Source of the DNA: Geminicoccus sp.
GTDB taxonomy: Bacteria > Pseudomonadota > Alphaproteobacteria > UBA7985
DNA: 37,586 nt
Assembly: GCA_002705565.1 (NCBI GenBank)
Contig: PAHJ01000159.1
Coordinates: 2,071-39,656, forward strand
Direction: 5' to 3'
How positions within the stretch are numbered: the stretch's first letter is position 1; every line of letters begins with the position of its first letter. A model generated the notes under the pieces. It saw only the letters and a program-made list of their open reading frames with translations. It was not told where the DNA came from and searched no databases. A program made the translations under genes and the position numbers. Of this stretch, positions 1-10,210 are shown in pieces.

Positions 1-482
1 CGATCGGGCGTCAACGCCAGAGCTGTCTTCAGCGGTAGAGGCATGAGCGGCCGAAAGGCCCCACCCAGTGGTGCCAGCCGCAGCAACCAGCGAAAAACGC
101 GGGGCCGAGGCAAAGCCTGCGCGAGAAACCAGCGATATGCGCGCTCGAACAGCGGACGATCATAGTCCCGCTCGATCACCTTTCGGCCGTGATCAATCAG
201 ATGCATGTAATCCACGCCAGACGGGCAGGTCGTGGTGCAGGCCAAACAGCTCAAACACCGGTCCAGGTGCTCCACCACGTCCCGGGTCGGCTTCCGTCCA
301 TTCTCGAGCATATCCTTGAGCAAGTAGATCCGGCCCCGAGGGCTGTCTAACTCGTCACCCAGCAGCTGGTAGGTCGGGCAGGTTCCAGTACACAGGCCAC
401 AGTGAACGCAGTTGCGGAAAATCGCCTCTGAGCGCTGGGTTTCAGCATCTTTGACCATGCCTTCTTTAAAGAACGTCTGCAT
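1..482 (-). CDS. glcF: Glycolate oxidase iron-sulfur subunit GlcF (partial, N-terminal 160 residues)
   Basis: The gene starts at an ATG whose complement is 480-482 and runs off the left edge, so only the N-terminal third is present. GlcF is the iron-sulfur subunit of the membrane-associated GlcDEF complex, which oxidises glycolate to glyoxylate and passes electrons to the quinone pool. Two [4Fe-4S] motifs are visible: C25-x2-C28-x2-C31-x3-CP and C76-x2-C79-x2-C82-x3-CP, spaced as in the family. The start lies 3 bases after the glcE stop, which fits one transcript glcD-glcE-glcF. The C-terminal cysteine-rich (CCG) domains expected in GlcF would lie outside the window. The identification is firm from the motifs and the gene order. 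Confidence 0.95.
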   Translation of the reverse strand, partial: MQTFFKEGMVKDAETQRSEAIFRNCVHCGLCTGTCPTYQLLGDELDSPRGRIYLLKDMLENGRKPTRDVVEHLDRCLSCLACTTTCPSGVDYMHLIDHGRKVIERDYDRPLFERAYRWFLAQALPRPRVFRWLLRLAPLGGAFRPLMPLPLKTALALTPD

Positions 483-485
483 GGT

Positions 486-1406
486 TCAAACCTCTTCGTA
501 CATGCGGCCCGGATTGAACCGCCCGGCCGGATCAAAAGCGCGCTTTAGCAGGCGGGTGAGCGCCAGGTTGCCTGAACTCAGCGGCTGAAAGCAGGAGTGT
601 TGCTGTCGATGGGAAAGCGGGCTTTTGATCAGAAGCGCATGACCGCCCGCGCCTGCGGCGACAGCGTGACCATCGGTGCTTTCCCCTGTGATCTCGTCTG
701 CCGCCAACCACAACAAAGCGCCGTTCCACTGCTGGACCATTTGGCCCGGCCAGGTTTTCGCAATCTCTTTGGCCCGGTCGCGCGGCACGCTCACCCGCCA
801 GACAAAGGGTGCCGACCACAGGGCGACAGGCGGTTCAGAAGCCTGTTCAACGGCCCGCGCCTTGGGCAGTACCTTGATGGTGATTTCAGTCAGGATCGCA
901 AGCGTCCCCCACGACCCACTAAGACCGCGCGGAATATCATACCCGGAGACGTTCTTGACCACCCGACCCCCGGCCTTGAGCAGCTTGCCCTTGCCGTTTA
1001 TGTACTGCGCGCCGAGGACGTTATCACGGGGGGCGCCCAGGCTCTCGCGCTCTGCACCGCCGATGTTGGTGGCGATAACCCCTCCCAATGTGGGATCTCC
1101 GCCAAAGCGCGGTGGGTCGAAGGGCAGGATTAGATCGTGCTCGGCTAAGGTTGCCTCAATGACTGACAGACGCGTGCCGGCAAGAGCGCCAAGGACAAAC
1201 TCCCGGGGTTCGAAATGCGTAATGCCTGCCAGGCCCAGCGTAGAGACACACGGCGCGCTGACCGGATAGCCGATCCCAGCCTTGGTCCCTGCGCCCTGAA
1301 CCTCGATGGGTTGGTCCAGTCCCGCCACGCAGTCGGCCAAGGCTTCTGGGGTCGTGAAGGGGGCGGTTTCCGGCGTAAACTCGGGTGCTGGGGCGGCCTG
1401 CGTCAT
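486..1406 (-). CDS. glcE: Glycolate oxidase FAD-binding subunit GlcE, internally shortened
   Basis: This 306-residue protein is the second FAD-type subunit of glycolate oxidase. The PCMH-type FAD domain is recognisable by PFDPPRFGGDPTLGG (about 95-109), an IATNIGG segment and KNVSGYD (151-157). The C-terminus LDP/FDPAGRFNPGRMY (about 290-303) is the usual end of the GlcD/GlcE family. E. coli GlcE is 350 residues. From memory of that sequence, the segment between the end of the FAD domain (about residue 188) and the W-R-(V/I)-S-(V/L)-P strand (about 203) is shorter here by some tens of residues, while both flanks align. No stop or frame break is seen. The start ATG shares its A with the glcD stop (TGATG), so translation is probably coupled. 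Confidence 0.92.
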   Translation of the reverse strand: MTQAAPAPEFTPETAPFTTPEALADCVAGLDQPIEVQGAGTKAGIGYPVSAPCVSTLGLAGITHFEPREFVLGALAGTRLSVIEATLAEHDLILPFDPPRFGGDPTLGGVIATNIGGAERESLGAPRDNVLGAQYINGKGKLLKAGGRVVKNVSGYDIPRGLSGSWGTLAILTEITIKVLPKARAVEQASEPPVALWSAPFVWRVSVPRDRAKEIAKTWPGQMVQQWNGALLWLAADEITGESTDGHAVAAGAGGHALLIKSPLSHRQQHSCFQPLSSGNLALTRLLKRAFDPAGRFNPGRMYEEV

Positions 1407-2875
1407 CAGACCGAAACCCGGTTGGGAACGATTTGATCAGCGGGTACGCCTACTTCGTCCAGCGGAAACACCTTGCCGCCATTGAGCAGCCACTGGGGGT
1501 CGAACTGGCGCTTGATTTCCTTCATCTGATTGAGTTCAGCCGGACTGAACATGAGCGGCATATGATCCCGCTTTTCGATGCCCACACCATGTTCGCCAGT
1601 GATGCATCCGCCAGCATCCACACAGACCTTGAGAATTTCCGCGCCGCACGCCTCCACCTCGTCCAACACGCCCGGTTGATGACTATCGTACATGATCAGT
1701 GGGTGCATGTTGCCGTCGCCTGCGTGGAAAATGTTGGCAATCTCAAAGCCGTAGCGCGCGCCGATGGCGTAAATCTGCTCCAACACGTCGGGCAGCTTGG
1801 TTACCGGAATGGTGCCGTCCATGCACAGATAATCGGGCGAAATCTGCCCTATTGCACCAAAGGCGCTCTTGCGGCCTTTCCAGATGTTTTCGGCCGAGGC
1901 GAAATCTTCCGCCACCCGCAGAGATATAGCTCCGTGATCACGGGCCATGCCCTCGACGAAGGCCAACTCTTCTTCGATTTCCGCTTCTGAGCCTTCGACC
2001 TCGATGATCAAAAGAGCTTGCGCCTCGACCGGATAGCCCGCGCCGGTGAATTTCTCGCAGGCAAGGATCGCGGGACGGTCCATAAACTCGATAGCCACAG
2101 GGGTCCGACCTGTCGCCATGATCGCGGCGACACAGGCCCCGGCGTCCAGGGCGGAATCGAACCCGGCCAATAATGGACGCGCAGCCTCTGGCTTGTCCAT
2201 CAGCCGCACCGTGACCTCCGTCACCACGCCCAACTGCCCTTCTGCACCCACAATCATGCCGAGCAGGTCGTATCCAGGCAGGTCGTAGGCTTCGCCACCA
2301 ATATCGACGACTTCGCCCTCCATCGTGACGAACTTCACGCCCAGAATGTGGTTCGTCGTCACCCCGTATTTCAGACAGTGTGCCCCGCCAGAATTCATCG
2401 CAACGTTACCGCCAATGGTACAGGCGATCTGGCTGCTTGGATCGGGGGCGTAAAACAGTCCCAGATCGTCCACGGCGACGGATATGTTTTTGTTGGTGAC
2501 CCCTGCCTGCACCAGCGCGGTCTTGTTCTCGATATTCACATCAAGGATTTCGTTCATCTTGGACAGGCCCAGCACGACCGCATCCAGCTGAGGCAGAGCA
2601 CCGCCAGCCAGCGATGTTCCCGCACCACGCGCCATGACCGGCACCCCATGGTCGTTGCAGTACTTCAGCACCGCCGCGACGTGTTCTGTGGTCTCAGCCA
2701 AGGCAACCAGCATAGGCACCGTGCGGTAGCAGGCCAGGCCGTCTGTTTCGTAGCCCTTCAGCTCATTGGAAGAGGTAATCAGCAGCGCTTCGTTACCGAG
2801 CAGCGCACGCAGGTCGTGGGCGATGGTTTCACGCCGCGCGAGCACCTCAGCAGATGGACTTGGCATATTCAGCAT
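1406..2875 (-). CDS. glcD: Glycolate oxidase FAD-linked subunit GlcD
   Basis: This 489-residue protein is the catalytic FAD subunit of glycolate oxidase. The FAD_binding_4 domain shows MARGAGTSLAGGALP (about 80-94) and GGNVAMNSGGAHCLKYG (about 153-169). The C-terminal FAD-oxidase domain shows HAGDGNMHPLI and ITGEHGVGIEKR, both diagnostic of the GlcD / D-lactate dehydrogenase family. The presence of glcE and glcF directly downstream points to glycolate rather than D-lactate. Length matches E. coli GlcD (499). The start is ATG at 2875, with a second ATG three codons later at 2866; neither has a strong ribosome binding site. The 88-base gap to the upstream regulator holds TGGTCT operator-like half-sites. 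Confidence 0.96.
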   Translation of the reverse strand: MLNMPSPSAEVLARRETIAHDLRALLGNEALLITSSNELKGYETDGLACYRTVPMLVALAETTEHVAAVLKYCNDHGVPVMARGAGTSLAGGALPQLDAVVLGLSKMNEILDVNIENKTALVQAGVTNKNISVAVDDLGLFYAPDPSSQIACTIGGNVAMNSGGAHCLKYGVTTNHILGVKFVTMEGEVVDIGGEAYDLPGYDLLGMIVGAEGQLGVVTEVTVRLMDKPEAARPLLAGFDSALDAGACVAAIMATGRTPVAIEFMDRPAILACEKFTGAGYPVEAQALLIIEVEGSEAEIEEELAFVEGMARDHGAISLRVAEDFASAENIWKGRKSAFGAIGQISPDYLCMDGTIPVTKLPDVLEQIYAIGARYGFEIANIFHAGDGNMHPLIMYDSHQPGVLDEVEACGAEILKVCVDAGGCITGEHGVGIEKRDHMPLMFSPAELNQMKEIKRQFDPQWLLNGGKVFPLDEVGVPADQIVPNRVSV

Positions 2876-2880
2876 GTCAG

Positions 2881-2952
2881 CAGACCATTCAGTTTCTTAA
2901 TTCTGGTTAATCATTGATAAGGTGAACAAAATTTGGTCTGGAAACAAGACCA
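2881..2952. promoter_or_regulatory. Operator-like TGGTCT half-sites upstream of glcD
   Basis: Between the regulator stop (2964) and the glcD start (2875) lies an inverted repeat, TGGTCT at 2934-2939 and AGACCA at 2947-2952, with a 7-base spacer. A third copy of the half-site (CAGACCA, complement TGGTCTG) sits at 2881-2887, just before the glcD start. Regulators of the PdhR/LldR/FadR branch of the GntR family bind TGGT/ACCA-type inverted repeats, so this is a good candidate site for the neighbouring regulator. The 7-base spacer is wider than the classical TGGTnnnACCA arrangement. No convincing -35/-10 pair could be fixed in this gap. Confidence 0.55.
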
Positions 2953-2963
2953 CTTTGTCCATG

Positions 2964-3743
2964 CTATGCTTTGAATCCATAAGTTTCCGCTCTTAATCGT
3001 GCCGTTTCAAAGCGTTGGCGCATGCGCATGGCATCACTGAAAAAGTCGATAATGAAGGTCAGATGGGCGCTCATTGTCCGTTCGGCCCCCGCCACGTCGC
3101 CTTGGACGATGGCGTCGCAGATGGCCTTGTGCTGTTCCAAAAGACGATCCTTGCCGCCAGCCTCCAGATAAACAACATAGCGGTTGTAGAAGACGCCCTG
3201 CCGGATCAACTCGAAAATCGAGCGCAACGAAAAGATCATCATGGGGTTGTGGGTGGCTTCGGCGATTGAATGGTGAAAGTCAGCGTCCAACTCAGCCCCG
3301 ACGTTGGGGTCGTCCTGATCGTGTACGGCGGCCATGGCATCGTACTTGGACTGGATGATCTGACGGTCGAATTCCGTCGCGCGCTCTGCGGCCAGACCAG
3401 CGGCCTTAGATTCCAGCAAGACGCGGAACTCCATGTAGTCGATGTAAGCTTCTTCATGGCGCGAAAACAGGCCGATCAGCGGTTTAGAGACGGCTGAACC
3501 AACGATATCCGCAATGTAAGTCCCACCGCCCTGCTTAGCCTCCACCAATCCCAGCTGTTCCAGCGTTTTCAAGGCTTCCCGCAGGGTCTGGCGTGAGACC
3601 TCAAGCTGTTCAGAAAGCTCGCGCTCGCCCGGTAGCTTCTCACCGTCGCGCAAACTCCCGTGCAGGATCATTTGCTCAAACTGCTCGACAACAGCCTGTG
3701 CGACACGCGTATGCTCGACCTTGCGAAACTTCTTTCCCGTCAC
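2964..3743 (-). CDS. GntR-family (FadR/FCD branch) transcriptional regulator, likely of glycolate genes
   Basis: The protein has an N-terminal winged helix (KLPGERELSEQLEVSRQTLREALKTLEQLGLV, ending GGGTYI) and an all-helical FCD ligand-binding domain. This is the architecture of GlcC, PdhR and LldR, which sense small carboxylates. The reading frame is open to a GTG at 3764. I chose GTG 3743 (259 residues) because it follows an AGAGGA ribosome binding site, and because a TATAAT box at 3773-3778 would start transcription at about 3765, leaving no leader for the longer form. It stands directly upstream of glcDEF on the same strand, so a glycolate or glyoxylate ligand is likely. The exact ligand is inferred. 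It is GlcC-like in role, not proven orthologous. Confidence 0.88.
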   Translation of the reverse strand: MTGKKFRKVEHTRVAQAVVEQFEQMILHGSLRDGEKLPGERELSEQLEVSRQTLREALKTLEQLGLVEAKQGGGTYIADIVGSAVSKPLIGLFSRHEEAYIDYMEFRVLLESKAAGLAAERATEFDRQIIQSKYDAMAAVHDQDDPNVGAELDADFHHSIAEATHNPMMIFSLRSIFELIRQGVFYNRYVVYLEAGGKDRLLEQHKAICDAIVQGDVAGAERTMSAHLTFIIDFFSDAMRMRQRFETARLRAETYGFKA

Positions 3744-3772
3744 CCTGTCCTCTCCCCACGCCACCAGTGCCG

Positions 3773-3800
3773 ATTATAGGTGCGGCCTGGCTCATGACCA
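3773..3800 (-). promoter_or_regulatory. Putative promoter of the GntR-type regulator
   Basis: On the minus strand a perfect TATAAT box (ATTATA at 3773-3778) is preceded, with a 16-base spacer, by TGGTCA (complement at 3795-3800), which matches four of six -35 bases. Predicted transcription start is near 3765, just ahead of the preferred GTG start at 3743. The -35 element overlaps the palindrome at 3797-3816, so repression by the regulator itself is plausible. Confidence 0.5.
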
Positions 3801-3816
3801 GCGGGCTGCCGCTGGT
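3797..3816. promoter_or_regulatory. Perfect 8-bp inverted repeat (hairpin or operator) between MFS gene and regulator
   Basis: ACCAGCGG, loop GCTG, then CCGCTGGT forms a perfect 8-bp stem with a 4-base loop. It lies between the stop of the upstream MFS gene (3825) and the regulator start, and overlaps the putative -35 element. There is no U-run on the minus-strand side, so it is not a classical terminator for the MFS gene. It contains the TGGT/ACCA core also seen upstream of glcD, so it could be an autoregulatory operator or an RNA hairpin separating two transcripts. Confidence 0.5.
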
Positions 3817-3824
3817 TTAACCGC

Positions 3825-5093
3825 TTAACTTGATTCTGAATCCGCATCCGGCGTCGGTACGCCTCCGAAGCGAACATCCGGCGTCGGTACGCCTCCAAAG
3901 CGAACAAAGACACCGAAAACCACCAGGGGCACCACAACGATCAGCGCGAAGATCTGCAGGCCTTGCCAGCCAAATATCACCAGACAGGCCCCCGAAGACA
4001 ATGCGGCAACTGCCGAGAAGCTGGAAACAATCATGTCGTTTACGCCCTGCGCTCTTAGCTTTTCCGCGGGAGCTGCCAGAGACGCCACCATGATTCCGCC
4101 GCCAACATACAGGAAATTCCACCCCAGACCGAGCAGCACCAGCGCCACCAGAAACGCCCACAGCGCCGGAGCAAAGAGCGCCGTGACAGCCGCGCCGACC
4201 ATCAGCATCATACCGATGAAGATGAAACGATCTCGGCGAAGCCAACGCACCAAGACCCCACTGAACAGTGAGGGAGCAAACATCGCAAGGACATGGGCCT
4301 GGATCATGTAGGTGTTGACCTCGAAGGGAAAGTTCTGGGCCTGCATCTCCAACGACGAGGCGACCATCAGCAGGGTCATCACGCCATAGCCGACAGCCCC
4401 AGAAACGACGGCAAACCAGAAGAGCGGCTTGGAAAGCACCACTGCGCCCACTTGCCGTCCCTCGGCTCTAGCAGCTTTCTTGGCGGCCTGTGCCTGTTGG
4501 ACAGTTTCGGCGTCATTGGGGAAAGGCAGCAGCAACAGAATAACAGCAACCAAACCACAAACGGCCCCCATCATGAGATAGGGCGCAATGAAGCCCTCGA
4601 ACGGGAACACCAGTCCAGCAGACCGCGCGAGCGTCGGCCCCAGAAAACCAGCCAGAACGCCCCCAAACAGAGCCAGAGAAATCGCCATTTCGCGCAGATC
4701 TGAGGGCGATCGGTCGATGGCTGCAAACCGCAAACTGGCCAAACCGGCCAGGAATATCCCTAGCATCATGTGCCCGACACACAGCAACACGAAACTGCCA
4801 AGTCCAACCGCCAGCGCCGACACCACGCCTGCACCGACACCAAACAAGCTGGCCAGGATGTTAACCGGCTTCCGGCCCACTCGTCCCATCAACGTCGTCA
4901 GCGGCACTGCCGACGCCATCAGCGCCAGGAATTGGAGGCCATAAGGCACGGTCGCCAAACTCGGGTGGGAGGCAATCGCTTCACCAGCCAGTGAGGTAAT
5001 GGCGACGGCGATGGTTGCAGCACTGGTTCCAAGCCCCATACACAGGGAGAGGACAAGAACACCAACCGGCAGGCGCAACATACTGCTGAACAT
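3825..5093 (-). CDS. MFS transporter with a duplicated C-terminal tail motif
   Basis: This 422-residue protein has about twelve hydrophobic segments and a motif-A-like loop (MGRVGRKPVN, about 70-79) between helices 2 and 3, so it is a major facilitator superfamily permease in the inner membrane. The substrate is unknown. It sits 12 bases after the CitE-like gene and ahead of the glycolate regulator, so a small carboxylate is a reasonable guess. I chose ATG 5093 over TTG 5096 because GAGGA precedes it at good spacing. The C-terminal tail carries the ten-residue unit VRFGGVPTPD twice in a row, encoded by a 30-bp tandem repeat. The tail is presumably cytoplasmic. Confidence 0.85.
   Translation of the reverse strand: MFSSMLRLPVGVLVLSLCMGLGTSAATIAVAITSLAGEAIASHPSLATVPYGLQFLALMASAVPLTTLMGRVGRKPVNILASLFGVGAGVVSALAVGLGSFVLLCVGHMMLGIFLAGLASLRFAAIDRSPSDLREMAISLALFGGVLAGFLGPTLARSAGLVFPFEGFIAPYLMMGAVCGLVAVILLLLPFPNDAETVQQAQAAKKAARAEGRQVGAVVLSKPLFWFAVVSGAVGYGVMTLLMVASSLEMQAQNFPFEVNTYMIQAHVLAMFAPSLFSGVLVRWLRRDRFIFIGMMLMVGAAVTALFAPALWAFLVALVLLGLGWNFLYVGGGIMVASLAAPAEKLRAQGVNDMIVSSFSAVAALSSGACLVIFGWQGLQIFALIVVVPLVVFGVFVRFGGVPTPDVRFGGVPTPDADSESS
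3845..3904. repeat. 30-bp tandem duplication inside the MFS gene
   Basis: Two adjacent 30-base units (3845-3874 and 3875-3904) differ at a single base (G versus A in the CCTCC(G/A)AAG stretch). The repeat keeps frame and duplicates VRFGGVPTPD in the C-terminal tail. It looks like a recent slippage or unequal recombination event. Confidence 0.9.
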
Positions 5094-5105
5094 CAAAATT
5101 CCTCG

Positions 5106-5969
5106 TTATGCGGTCAGCCCGAAGGCCCGGGCGCGCCGGATGGTTTCATGGGCACTGGCAAGATGGAGACGTTCGACCATCTCCCCCTCAATCTGCACCG
5201 CACCGCGATTGGCATGAGCCGGATCATCAAAGGCGGAAATGATAGCCTGCGCCCGTTCAATATCGACGGCTTTTGGTCCATATGCTCGATTGCAAGCCTC
5301 GATCTGAGCCGGGTGGATCAGCGTCTTTCCTGCCATCCCCAGCTCGACACCTTGCACGCATTCTTCCTCAAAGCGATCAAGGTCTCGAAAATTATTCGAC
5401 ACGCTGTCGAACACCGCTAGACCCGCCGCACTGGCGGCCAGAATCACTTCACTGAACCACGCGAGCATGTTCCAGCGCCCCGCCACCTGAGGCACGCCTG
5501 CGCCCAGAGCCAGATCATTGGCTCCGAGGACAAAGGCTCGCAACGAGGGTGCAACCGACGATGCGTGGGCCGCCATTTCTCGAATGTTCAGAACGGCCTG
5601 GGGTGTCTCGATCATCACCCACAGCGCTGCCGCGGAGCCATCCAGCGCCCTCTGACAGGACGTCAACTCTGTGACCGATGACACCTTGGGCACAACCACC
5701 ACGTCGGCACGCTGCGCCACCGGCAGGTCGAGCGAAAGATCAGGTTCGGACAGAGCGTTTGTGCGCACGGCAAGGGTCCGATCTCCGTATTCGGCCCTCT
5801 GCGCAAGCGCCTGTTGCACGAAGTCACGCGCCTGAGCCTTTGCGCCAGACGCGACTGAATCTTCGAGATCAAAAATAACAGCATCACACGCCAGTGTTCG
5901 CGCTTTCTCAAGCGCGCGGGCATTGCTGCCGGGCATAAACAAAGCGGAGCGGGGCAAAAGGGACTGCAT
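5106..5969 (-). CDS. HpcH/HpaI aldolase / CitE-like lyase (malyl-CoA lyase-type)
   Basis: This protein of about 287 residues belongs to the CitE / malyl-CoA lyase family of TIM-barrel enzymes, which make or break beta-hydroxyacyl-CoA (or acyl-carrier) bonds with Mg2+. Family signatures are RSALFMPGSN near the N-terminus (CoA side), DAVIFDLEDSV (Mg-ligand region), VVPKVSS, IETPQAVLN and GANDLA. I chose ATG 5969, preceded closely by AAGG; TTG 5981 would add four residues. It heads the minus-strand group MFS-regulator-glcDEF, whose oxidase makes glyoxylate. Glyoxylate is the aldehyde substrate of malyl-CoA lyase and of related malyl-CoA thioesterases. No citF/citD partners are present, so true citrate lyase is unlikely. 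The exact reaction is inferred from context. Confidence 0.85.
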   Translation of the reverse strand: MQSLLPRSALFMPGSNARALEKARTLACDAVIFDLEDSVASGAKAQARDFVQQALAQRAEYGDRTLAVRTNALSEPDLSLDLPVAQRADVVVVPKVSSVTELTSCQRALDGSAAALWVMIETPQAVLNIREMAAHASSVAPSLRAFVLGANDLALGAGVPQVAGRWNMLAWFSEVILAASAAGLAVFDSVSNNFRDLDRFEEECVQGVELGMAGKTLIHPAQIEACNRAYGPKAVDIERAQAIISAFDDPAHANRGAVQIEGEMVERLHLASAHETIRRARAFGLTA

Positions 5970-6067
5970 GACCTTACCCAATCACCGACATCGCGGTCTG
6001 TCGAGGTATGGCGGCCCTGCGCAAACTCGCGTGGCGTCCTGAGGCGTTTCTGCGCAAGGCTGACGTT

Positions 6068-7300
6068 ATGCTTCGCTTTGACACCACTTCGTCCAACGCC
6101 CTGCGGCATCCGTTATATGTTCAATGGACTTTGGGCTTCATGATTGGTGCCATTGGTTTGTGGATGACCCGGCTCACGCTGGGTTACGTGGTATGGGAGC
6201 TCACACAGTCTCCGGCGCTAACCGGCCTGACGGCGTTTCTGATCCTCGCCATGCCGGGCGTATTTGGCCCATTTATGGGGGTTTTGATCGAGAACCTGAA
6301 CCCAAAGCGCGTGATCGTCGCGGTGCAGTTCATGATCCTTCTCGTGTACCTCTCACTTGCAATCATCGCCGCGCTTGGCACGACCTCAGTGGCACCCTAC
6401 ATCATCGCCGCTGCTGCGACGGGTTTTGTGATCGCGATTTGGCAGCCTGCGCGGTTGGTTATGCCGACCTTGCTGGTGACAGAGAACGCGCTGTCTTCGG
6501 CCGTAGCGGTCAATTCGACGCTGTTCAATACGGCTCGGGGCGTTGGTCCGGCGCTGGCCGCTTGGGTCATTGCATTTGGCAACATTGCCTTCGCTTTTTT
6601 CGCAGGGTTCCTGCTCTACGCCATCTTCTTTGTGGTGGTGGTCTTTCTCAACGTCAAACACACGGCGAAGGGTAAGCCAACCGGGTCATTCATGGACCGC
6701 CTCGCTGGCGGCATGCGAGAAGCAGGCAAAGACCCACTGATGATGCTCGCCATGGCGGCCACCGTTTTTTCAGGCTTTTTTGGCCGCTCGGTGGTTGAAC
6801 TGATGCCTGCGATAAACGGGGAGCTGGTGACCAACGGAACGGCGCAGACGCTGGGCTATCTGACCTCGGCGGCGGGCGCGGGTGCGATTATCATCGGCAT
6901 GGTTCTGGCAACGCGGCGCGGGTCTGCACGCCAGATGCTGGGCTACCTGTTTGCTGGCGGTCTTGTCGGTGGGCTTGCAGTGTGCGGCATGGGGCTTTCA
7001 ACAACGGTCTGGTTGCTGCTGCCCCTCTCGTTCATTTCAGGGGCTGCGGGCAGCCTCACGCTGATTGGCAGTCAGGCCTCCATCCTGCAGGCTGCCCCCA
7101 AGGACTATCGAACCCGCATCATGGCACTCTGGGGTGCACTCGCCTTCGGCGGCATGGGGATTGGCGGCGTTGCCAGCGGCCTGCTGGCCTCGGCCATCGG
7201 CCTGTCGCTGACTTTGGGGATATTTGGTCTGGTCGGCAGCCTCGGCAGTGCGTTTCTGTGGCTCTATGCGCGACGCACCGTAACGGGACAAAACCTCTAG
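6068..7300 (+). CDS. MFS transporter (MFS_3 / EntS-like)
   Basis: The protein has about 410 residues and ten to twelve hydrophobic helices. It begins PLYVQWTLGFMIGAIGLWMT and has the WQPARLVMPTLL segment of the MFS_3 / EntS-like export family. An open frame extends up to an ATG at 6008, but that codon has no spaced ribosome binding site and adds a charged, non-conserved stretch. ATG 6068 has AAGG nine bases upstream and puts the first helix near the N-terminus. It is divergent from the CitE-like gene. The substrate is unknown; export of a metabolite or siderophore-like compound is typical of relatives. Confidence 0.82.
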   Translation: MLRFDTTSSNALRHPLYVQWTLGFMIGAIGLWMTRLTLGYVVWELTQSPALTGLTAFLILAMPGVFGPFMGVLIENLNPKRVIVAVQFMILLVYLSLAIIAALGTTSVAPYIIAAAATGFVIAIWQPARLVMPTLLVTENALSSAVAVNSTLFNTARGVGPALAAWVIAFGNIAFAFFAGFLLYAIFFVVVVFLNVKHTAKGKPTGSFMDRLAGGMREAGKDPLMMLAMAATVFSGFFGRSVVELMPAINGELVTNGTAQTLGYLTSAAGAGAIIIGMVLATRRGSARQMLGYLFAGGLVGGLAVCGMGLSTTVWLLLPLSFISGAAGSLTLIGSQASILQAAPKDYRTRIMALWGALAFGGMGIGGVASGLLASAIGLSLTLGIFGLVGSLGSAFLWLYARRTVTGQNL

Positions 7301-8620: not shown

Positions 8621-8797
8621 GTTCCGCCCTGTATTGGGGCGCCCCTGGCTTCGATACCGGAAATGCGGCCATTAGCAGGCTGTTTTATCTACAATTTATC
8701 ATTCTTGCATAATTATTGCTTTCTCTTCTGTTATCACTGCGACCCAAAGTTCCAGCGAAGGAACCGCTGTTCACACAACGTGACGGTCGCCCGCAGA

Positions 8798-10210
8798 ATG
8801 GGAACCCAGCGTTTGAAGCGCTTCGCCGCCATTGTGAGCATGCTGTTGATCAGCGTATCGGTTCGGGCCGAGACGATGCTGGTCGTGGACGGCTCGAATT
8901 CCATGTGGGGCGAGATCGACAAGGTTGCGAAAATTGAAATCGCCCAAAACGCCATCAATGGGCTGCTCGATGAATGGAGCGCGGCTGAACCGCTGGGGGT
9001 CGCGGCCTATGGGCATCGGTCCACATGGGGGTGCGATGATAGCCAAGTGCTGCTCGAACCCGGCGCTACTTCAAACAGACTTCGGCGGGCGGTCAGCAGC
9101 ATTCAGCCCAAGGGCCGAACCCCGCTGACCAGTGCCTTGGTTGCTGCCAGCCGGACCTTGATCAACAGGAGAGCGGCGAACCCAACCTTGATCCTACTCA
9201 CCGATGGCGTTGAAACCTGTGGTCGGGACCTTTGCCTGTTTGCATACGTTCTAGCCGCCACTCACCCTGATTTCCGCATTCATGTGATCAGTTTTGGTAT
9301 GAGTGATTCGATGCGCCGGGTCTTGGACTGTTTAACTGATGAAACTGGCGGTTTGGCCTTAGCCGCGGATACAGCAGACGCTCTGTCTCAGGCAATGACA
9401 ACGGTGGCCCAGCGTGTTGGAGAGCAAGCCCACGAGCAGGCGCTCAGCGCAGAACCCGTCCGAAGCAAACCCAAGCTGGTGCGCCTCCACGCGTCGCTGC
9501 AAGAGCTTCTGTCCCCTCCCCACCGGGTCGAAACACCACCAATGCCAGCTCAGCCGGCGACCGCAGTGCTGCCGACCGATGGCGTGCAGCGAGACGATCC
9601 TTCGCGCATTCTTCATCGGCGCGCGCTGGAGGTCGTGTCGCAATCGCTCACCGTTCAGCTGGACGAAAGCGAGAGCATCCAGAACGCCACAGGGTTGAGC
9701 AGCCGCGGTCCCTCTGGGGTGGAGTTCCGCGTGCGCCTCGCCAGGGCGGCAGAGCCACCCTTGGGTGTCAACAAGCCGCTTTGGACCCTCTATGAACGTC
9801 AGGGCCAGCAGCGCGGGCAGAAGCTCCAGCAAATCCAGGTGCAACAGCCAGCTTACGAGCTACTGCCGGGCGACTACTTCATGGAGATGTCTGCAGAAAA
9901 CATCCGCTATAACTATGGATTTACGGTCGGCGACACCCTGCCCTCAGAGCATATCATCACGCTGAACCTTGGCCGGTTGGATATTGAAGTCGAGAATAAC
10001 GCAGCCCTCGATATCTCCGCCTTTCGCTTTGCCCGTGGGCCGGAGAATCCGAGTCTGGACTTTGCCGTCAGGGGGCCATGGTCGCACTCGCTCCTGCTGC
10101 CCGCAGGAACCTACGTCGTTCAGGGGCGGATGGCCAATCGGCAGAAGACGGTGGGACCACTGGTCATTGAGCCGGGCAAAACCACCCATACGCGCATTCT
10201 GGTGCACTAG
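8798..10210 (+). CDS. Secreted von Willebrand factor A domain protein
   Basis: From ATG 8798 the product is 470 residues. It opens with a signal peptide (KR, hydrophobic run, VRA cleavage at about residue 24), so it is probably periplasmic. A VWA domain follows with a complete metal-ion-dependent adhesion site: D31-G-S33-N-S35, T108 and D136 (TDGVETC). The region after about residue 200 is unrecognised; its last ~120 residues look like a beta-rich domain ending in a PAGTYVVQG strand. The frame is open back to 8663, but the extension is cysteine-rich and would bury the signal peptide. No strong ribosome binding site is near ATG 8798, and GTG 8780 is an alternative. No partner gene (AAA+ MoxR or other VWA genes) adjoins it, so its role is unknown. 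Confidence 0.8.
   Translation: MGTQRLKRFAAIVSMLLISVSVRAETMLVVDGSNSMWGEIDKVAKIEIAQNAINGLLDEWSAAEPLGVAAYGHRSTWGCDDSQVLLEPGATSNRLRRAVSSIQPKGRTPLTSALVAASRTLINRRAANPTLILLTDGVETCGRDLCLFAYVLAATHPDFRIHVISFGMSDSMRRVLDCLTDETGGLALAADTADALSQAMTTVAQRVGEQAHEQALSAEPVRSKPKLVRLHASLQELLSPPHRVETPPMPAQPATAVLPTDGVQRDDPSRILHRRALEVVSQSLTVQLDESESIQNATGLSSRGPSGVEFRVRLARAAEPPLGVNKPLWTLYERQGQQRGQKLQQIQVQQPAYELLPGDYFMEMSAENIRYNYGFTVGDTLPSEHIITLNLGRLDIEVENNAALDISAFRFARGPENPSLDFAVRGPWSHSLLLPAGTYVVQGRMANRQKTVGPLVIEPGKTTHTRILVH

Follow-up and report, generated by a model that had tools for sequence, protein, structure and literature searches.

Genes of the locus

We analyzed a 37,586-nucleotide stretch of a Geminicoccus sp. 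genome (GenBank assembly GCA_002705565.1, contig PAHJ01000159.1), referred to here as the window, in which a putative glycolate oxidase operon adjoins a gene of the CitE superfamily. The window spans C33:2071-39656 of a 3.0-Mb genome that is 83% complete and divided into 163 contigs. Six genes lie on its minus strand in the order CitE-like, MFS, GntR, glcD, glcE, glcF (Table 1), as an original prediction made from the sequence alone had listed them. Its description of the cluster as glycolate (2-hydroxyacid) oxidation genes beside a CitE-superfamily gene of malyl-coenzyme A (malyl-CoA) kind also holds, and extends across the genus. The CitE-like protein very probably belongs to the clade of the malyl-CoA thioesterase Mcl2.

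Table 1. Features of the locus and their positions in the window
Feature	Position	Strand	Basis or remark
CitE-superfamily protein, probably of Mcl2 (malyl-CoA thioesterase) type	5106..5969	-	PF03328, 121 bits
Lid Glu codon of the CitE-like gene	5172-5174	-	Alignment
MFS_1 transporter	3825..5096	-	PF07690, 74 bits
GntR regulator, FCD subfamily (LldR/PdhR/GlcC-like)	2964..3764	-	FCD and GntR domains
19-bp palindrome, TGGTCT-N7-AGACCA	2934..2952		Between GntR and glcD
GlcD, flavin adenine dinucleotide (FAD) subunit of glycolate oxidase	1406..2875	-	PF02913, PF01565
GlcE, second FAD-binding subunit	486..1406	-	PRK11282, 232 bits (cut-off, 284)
GlcF, iron-sulfur subunit	3..482, truncated by window start	-	Full protein in L005 1260-2552
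Divergent MFS_3-type transporter, outside the module	6008..7300	+	PF05977

Proteins of the GlcDEF family convert glycolate to glyoxylate. Three subunits, the DEF order, and matches to the family models place glcDEF in this family. GlcD and GlcE each have their own family models as top matches yet fall under the curated cut-offs (for GlcD, 542 bits to PRK11230 with a cut-off of 897, and 480 bits to TIGR00387 with a cut-off of 568); the complete GlcF on the contig, of 430 amino acids, scores 446.8 bits against a curated cut-off of 333. The regulator matches LldR, PdhR, and GlcC at 180, 173, and 165 bits, each below its cut-off, a pattern that points to no one effector. No NCBIfam model exceeded its cut-off for the MFS_1 protein, whose gene is separated by 9 bp from the CitE-like gene. 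The frame of the latter is open over positions 5106-5981, with a TTG at 5981 and an ATG at 5969. Profile scans covered eight proteins of the locus.

The glc operon of Escherichia coli consists of glcC and glcDEFGBA. The window cluster resembles it in glcDEF and a GntR/FCD regulator but differs in having neither malate synthase, which is on another contig, nor the GlcA permease, whose place is taken by one Mcl2-type and one MFS_1 gene. From these matches, the locus is probably a glycolate oxidase operon that has a GntR regulator and, in this genus, is linked to an Mcl2-type gene.

Conservation of the gene order within the genus

We compared six genomes of the genus by tblastn (G000, G006, G007, G008, G009, and G010). 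All six keep the six genes in one order and on one strand, the contig of G007 stopping 40 residues into GlcF, and we therefore consider the arrangement to be beyond chance. Identity to the window proteins in the other five genomes is 86-94% for GlcD and 56-68% for the CitE-like protein.

Residues, loop, and phylogeny of the CitE-like protein

The nearest solved relatives of the CitE-like protein are 1sgj, 5ugr, and 4l9y, and models for CitE, RipC, and haloarchaeal malyl-CoA lyase match it weakly, far under their NCBIfam cut-offs. Scores (136 bits against a cut-off of 443), residues, and the tree all reject its identity as CitE, the citrate lyase beta subunit; none of the eight locus proteins scanned is encoded by a cit gene.

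A passage of PMC3832036 describes an Asp conserved across the superfamily, with a cluster containing the Rhodobacter sphaeroides malyl-CoA thioesterase, which carries Glu, as the sole exception. We aligned 66 CitE-like proteins, most of them picked for similarity to the window protein. All 66 retain the catalytic Arg and the metal ligands; the lid reads Glu-x-Leu-His in 54, including the window protein, and has Asp in 12. The window protein thus retains the metal and catalytic residues while its lid Asp is replaced by Glu. A branch with support of 100/99 separates the 54 Glu-x-Leu-His rows (hereafter Glu-type or Mcl2-type) from the others. Removing the lid columns left support of 91 in a quick tree; a more careful one, to which two further CitE-like proteins of the genus (from G010:C13 and G008:C20) were added, gave 100/97. 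Counting these two additions, 12 of the 14 CitE-like proteins outside the clade have a lid Asp. The G008:C20 protein (L175:310-2442; about 710 amino acids) has a lid Gly in its CitE-like part, and both additions sit on long branches, their exact placement being unsure. The long C-terminal part of the G008:C20 protein looks MaoC/hot-dog-like by eye and is matched by a protein of G009.

An insertion in the TIM barrel is described in the same source, PMC3832036, as a feature of MclR-type lyases. The corresponding loop has 11 residues in all 54 Glu-type rows, 28-34 in four MclR-type rows, 18-19 in two other rows of the lyase clade, and 10-11 in CitE and a haloarchaeal enzyme; because of these last, the loop sets apart only the typical MclR lyases. 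MclR-type lyases (4l9y from R. sphaeroides, and 5ugr) share the superfamily and the metal site with the window protein, which is 27-28% identical to two of them, but they have a lid Asp where it has Glu, and it is missing the insertion of their typical members. Scores, residues (lid Glu and 11-residue loop), and the tree reject an MclR-type identity. The original prediction, which had taken the protein for a malyl-CoA lyase type and proposed a family tree to place it, is not sustained on this point: the protein groups with the Mcl2, or thioesterase, side and apart from the lyases.

Six Glu-type proteins of the clade (L117, L118, L119, L121, L123, and L125) are annotated as "CoA ester lyase" in plasmid records, a label that may mislead.

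Synteny with mcl-2

The name mcl-2 enters our tree only through a syntenic gene of Ruegeria TM1040, not through the R. sphaeroides Mcl2 sequence itself. In TM1040, a Glu-type gene labeled "CoA ester lyase" is followed by genes for NnrU, DUF1737, MaoC, a histidine phosphatase, and sdhC, with mdh on its other side; MaoC is thus the third gene after it. A table in PMC6747724 pairs R. sphaeroides mcl-2 (RSP_0970) with mch (RSP_0973) and, in Paracoccus denitrificans, Pden_0563 with Pden_0566. The same spacing in TM1040 ties the clade to mcl-2 by synteny. The window protein shares with the (3S)-malyl-CoA thioesterase Mcl2 (RSP_0970; Pden_0563) the CitE-like superfamily, the lid Glu, and the lack of a large insertion, and it falls in one clade with the TM1040 protein. 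The two differ in context, the window gene lying beside glcDEF, GntR, and MFS genes and the known mcl-2 genes beside mdh, mch, or sdh.

Distribution among alphaproteobacteria

To see how far the link between glc and CitE-like genes extends, we drew 241 alphaproteobacterial genomes, counting GlcD at an E value of ≤1e-120 and the Mcl2-type protein at ≤1e-38. GlcD occurs in 105 genomes and the Mcl2-type gene in 104, the latter at one place per genome. Both are present in 72, on the same contig in 15 and on different contigs in 57, so that a contig break could conceal nearness in some. Only in the window's own genome are they ≤20 kb apart (1/72). We also inspected the 60 best-scoring GlcD neighborhoods after the window's own, out of 106 GlcD places, with flanks of ≤7 kb, several ended by contig ends. 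At a BLAST threshold of 1e-7, none of the 60 held a CitE-like, MFS1-like, or MSG-like gene, and a GntR relative appeared in two. Conversely, 29 loci of other CitE-like orthologues (3.0-3.9 kb each) contained no further gene of the window neighborhood. A widespread glcDEF-CitE association is thereby rejected for this sample, in which the pairing of glcDEF with an Mcl2-type gene is a feature of the genus. A literature search, judged from titles and the beginnings of abstracts, found no report of such an operon.

Relatives in the same taxonomic order have other neighbors. Glu-type genes of G002, G005, and G004 (L040, L042, and L043) adjoin a gene resembling pyridoxal kinase by eye, and that of G001 (L041) directly precedes genes resembling sdhCDAB by eye. 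G002 (family f2) has, in addition, a glc locus at L039:3373-8319 in which an MclR-type malyl-CoA lyase gene directly precedes glcDEF; its Glu-type gene sits on a separate contig. This locus resembles the window in having a CitE-superfamily gene beside glcDEF, but the gene encodes an MclR-type lyase with a lid Asp (470.8 bits to 5ugr), and the upstream regulator looks IclR-like by eye. It matches the originally predicted lyase module better than the window does.

Mcl2-type and MclR-type genes tend to occur together. At a class-wide MclR-type threshold of 1e-45, which may admit other lyases, 78 genomes have both, 26 the Glu-type gene alone, 22 the MclR-type gene alone, and 115 neither (Fisher p, 1e-20, with relatedness ignored). 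Malate synthase is present in 21 of the 26 Mcl2-type genomes in which no MclR-type gene reached the threshold. In Alloalcanivorax mobilis (L013:9062-10840), outside the alphaproteobacteria, an MclR-like, Asp-type gene directly precedes a Glu-type (Mcl2-like) one; the two may form a lyase-thioesterase pair.

Other glyoxylate and malyl-CoA genes in the genus

The cluster had originally been predicted to form a compact module in place of malate synthase, on a route different from the malate synthase G path of E. coli. Neither claim survives comparison with the genus: all six genomes contain open frames of the malate synthase family of 724-782 amino acids, the size of the G form, and all six contain isocitrate lyase family members above cut-off.

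A search with an MclR query found weaker CitE-like places in four genus genomes (G000, G008, G009, and G010), and identity to MclR-type references is about 28-34% for the other genus CitE-like proteins that we read. In the window's genome, PF03328 occurs at four places: the window protein, C135, C30, and C77. The C135 and C30 proteins look like HpaI-type aldolases by eye. On C77 (L046:2989-4289), a RipB-like hydratase gene is followed by a RipC/CitE-like lyase gene (139 and 180 bits, respectively, neither reaching its cut-off). The C77 lyase-like protein resembles RipC (3qll) and Mycobacterium tuberculosis CitE (6aq4 and 1z6k) and is the sole candidate partner lyase found in this genome, from which absence alone is weak evidence at its level of completeness.

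Predicted operator, transport, and neighboring genes

The arms of the palindrome between GntR and glcD are exact in five of the six genus genomes, with one base altered in G007, and a half-site, TGGTC, stands immediately before the glcD start in all six. Searched in loose form, the pattern occurs three times in the window (0.19 expected), twice at places other than this one; in none of the six genus loci was it found ahead of the CitE-like gene. The palindrome is probably the operator by which the GntR protein would act on glcDEF.

The original prediction also had the MFS protein import glycolate, which finds no support. The protein is one of a large family: relatives occur in 93 of the 241 sampled alphaproteobacteria, and in none of the 60 other GlcD neighborhoods.

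The divergent MFS_3 gene adjoins the operon in only three of the six genus genomes (G000, G007, and G010). A block at positions 5998-6013, upstream of the CitE-like gene, reads CGCCATACCTCGACAG in the operon sense and is conserved in five of the six genomes, being degraded in G006; the five include G008 and G009, both of which lack the divergent MFS_3 gene. It may be a promoter, an operator, or a remnant of the MFS_3 start. A gene at positions 8663-10210, VWA-like by eye and fast evolving, is likewise an operon neighbor in only three of the six genomes. In G007 and G010 its product shows 47-49% identity, compared with 94-95% for alanine dehydrogenase.

Interpretation and alternatives

We lean, with limited confidence, toward malyl-CoA hydrolysis in the service of glycolate use as the function of the Mcl2-type protein. 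By family, GlcDEF would oxidize glycolate to glyoxylate and pass the electrons to the respiratory chain. A promiscuous CitE-like lyase, for which the C77 protein is a candidate, may condense glyoxylate with acetyl-CoA to malyl-CoA, and the Mcl2-type protein would hydrolyze (3S)-malyl-CoA, or a close relative, to malate and CoA. Hydrolysis would draw glyoxylate toward malate and free CoA during glycolate oxidation, beside malate synthase and not replacing it. There are precedents: a passage of PMC2948502 describes malyl-CoA lyase and malyl-CoA thioesterase acting together as an apparent malate synthase in Methylobacterium extorquens on acetate, and the same is indicated for R. sphaeroides by the title of a paper that it cites (Erb 2010). 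Because malate synthase is also present in the genus, the Mcl2-type step would be an addition or a means of clearing malyl-CoA.

Several observations weigh against this proposal. The G010:C13 protein (L169:1489-2349) has a lid Glu without Leu-His (motif IEKPV) and falls outside the Mcl2 clade. Lid Glu is therefore rejected as a sufficient marker, it is clade membership together with Glu-x-Leu-His, and not Glu alone, that argues for the Mcl2 type, and our estimate of clade membership was lowered by this result from close to certain to very probable, our other estimates being unchanged. Identity between the window protein and the syntenic TM1040 protein is only 39%. Crotonyl-CoA carboxylase/reductase (Ccr) was above cut-off in none of the six genus genomes, which gave weaker matches only, and the classical source of malyl-CoA is thus missing. 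Nor did these genomes contain a close MclR-type lyase; in each, the best match of the MclR query was the Mcl2-type protein. In both respects the genus differs from the known Mcl2 system. Finally, the predicted operator between GntR and glcD comes after both the Mcl2-type and the MFS gene in the direction of the operon, so that these two may or may not be co-regulated with glcDEF.

The position of the palindrome, conserved only before glcD, also favors one alternative, in which the Mcl2-type gene is a general alphaproteobacterial gene of central metabolism that came to lie beside glc by chance in this genus and plays no part in the use of glycolate. In its favor, too, the family is found in 104 of the 241 sampled genomes, adjoins other genes elsewhere in the taxonomic order, and was never seen ≤20 kb from GlcD in the other 71 genomes that have both genes, although in 57 of these a contig break could hide nearness. 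Chance sits poorly, however, with an order and strand kept in all six genus genomes despite divergence of the protein to 56-68% identity, and with the 9-bp gap to the MFS_1 gene in the window. We regard this alternative as unlikely, but the least unlikely of the three considered here. The view of the original prediction, that the protein makes or breaks a C-C bond and uses glyoxylate directly (as a malyl-CoA or beta-methylmalyl-CoA lyase, or as a one-enzyme malate synthase), appears improbable. The metal ligands and catalytic Arg are all there, PMC3832036 describes HaloMS and HaloMCL as superfamily members that can join the lyase and thioesterase steps, and the Mcl2-type protein could substitute for the MclR-type lyase not found in the genus. 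Against this stand the lid Glu in place of Asp, the separate clade, a loop of 11 residues where four MclR-type rows have 28-34 (though the two other lyase-clade rows have 18-19, and CitE and the haloarchaeal enzyme 10-11), and the presence in all six genomes of a malate synthase for the net reaction.

More improbable again, in our judgment, is that the enzyme hydrolyzes the thioester of another hydroxyacyl-CoA (citramalyl-CoA, beta-methylmalyl-CoA, or similar) and that glcDEF oxidizes a larger 2-hydroxyacid. This reading would accommodate the scores of GlcD and GlcE below their equivalog cut-offs, the nearly equal matches of the regulator to LldR, PdhR, and GlcC, and the RipC/RipB-like lyase-hydratase pair, itself below cut-offs, in the window's genome. 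GlcF exceeds its cut-off, however, the DEF order is kept, and the eight locus proteins scanned include no CoA-transferase or CoA-ligase.

A variant of malyl-CoA hydrolysis for glycolate use, which we consider speculative and on balance doubtful, is that the operon has a built-in step for metabolite repair or for sparing CoA. Malyl-CoA (or beta-methylmalyl-CoA) formed as a side reaction by promiscuous lyases would then be hydrolyzed when glycolate oxidation lifts glyoxylate.

Implications

The locus is a lineage-specific rearrangement of known families and not a new pathway. Algae release much glycolate, and bacteria vary in how they use the glyoxylate that results. A "CoA ester lyase" label next to glcDEF may not mean a lyase, since the tree and lid motif point to the thioesterase side. 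Metabolite repair, if true, would give the Mcl2 family a role outside its described pairing with Mcl1, in hosts apparently lacking both an MclR-type malyl-CoA lyase and the ethylmalonyl-CoA pathway.

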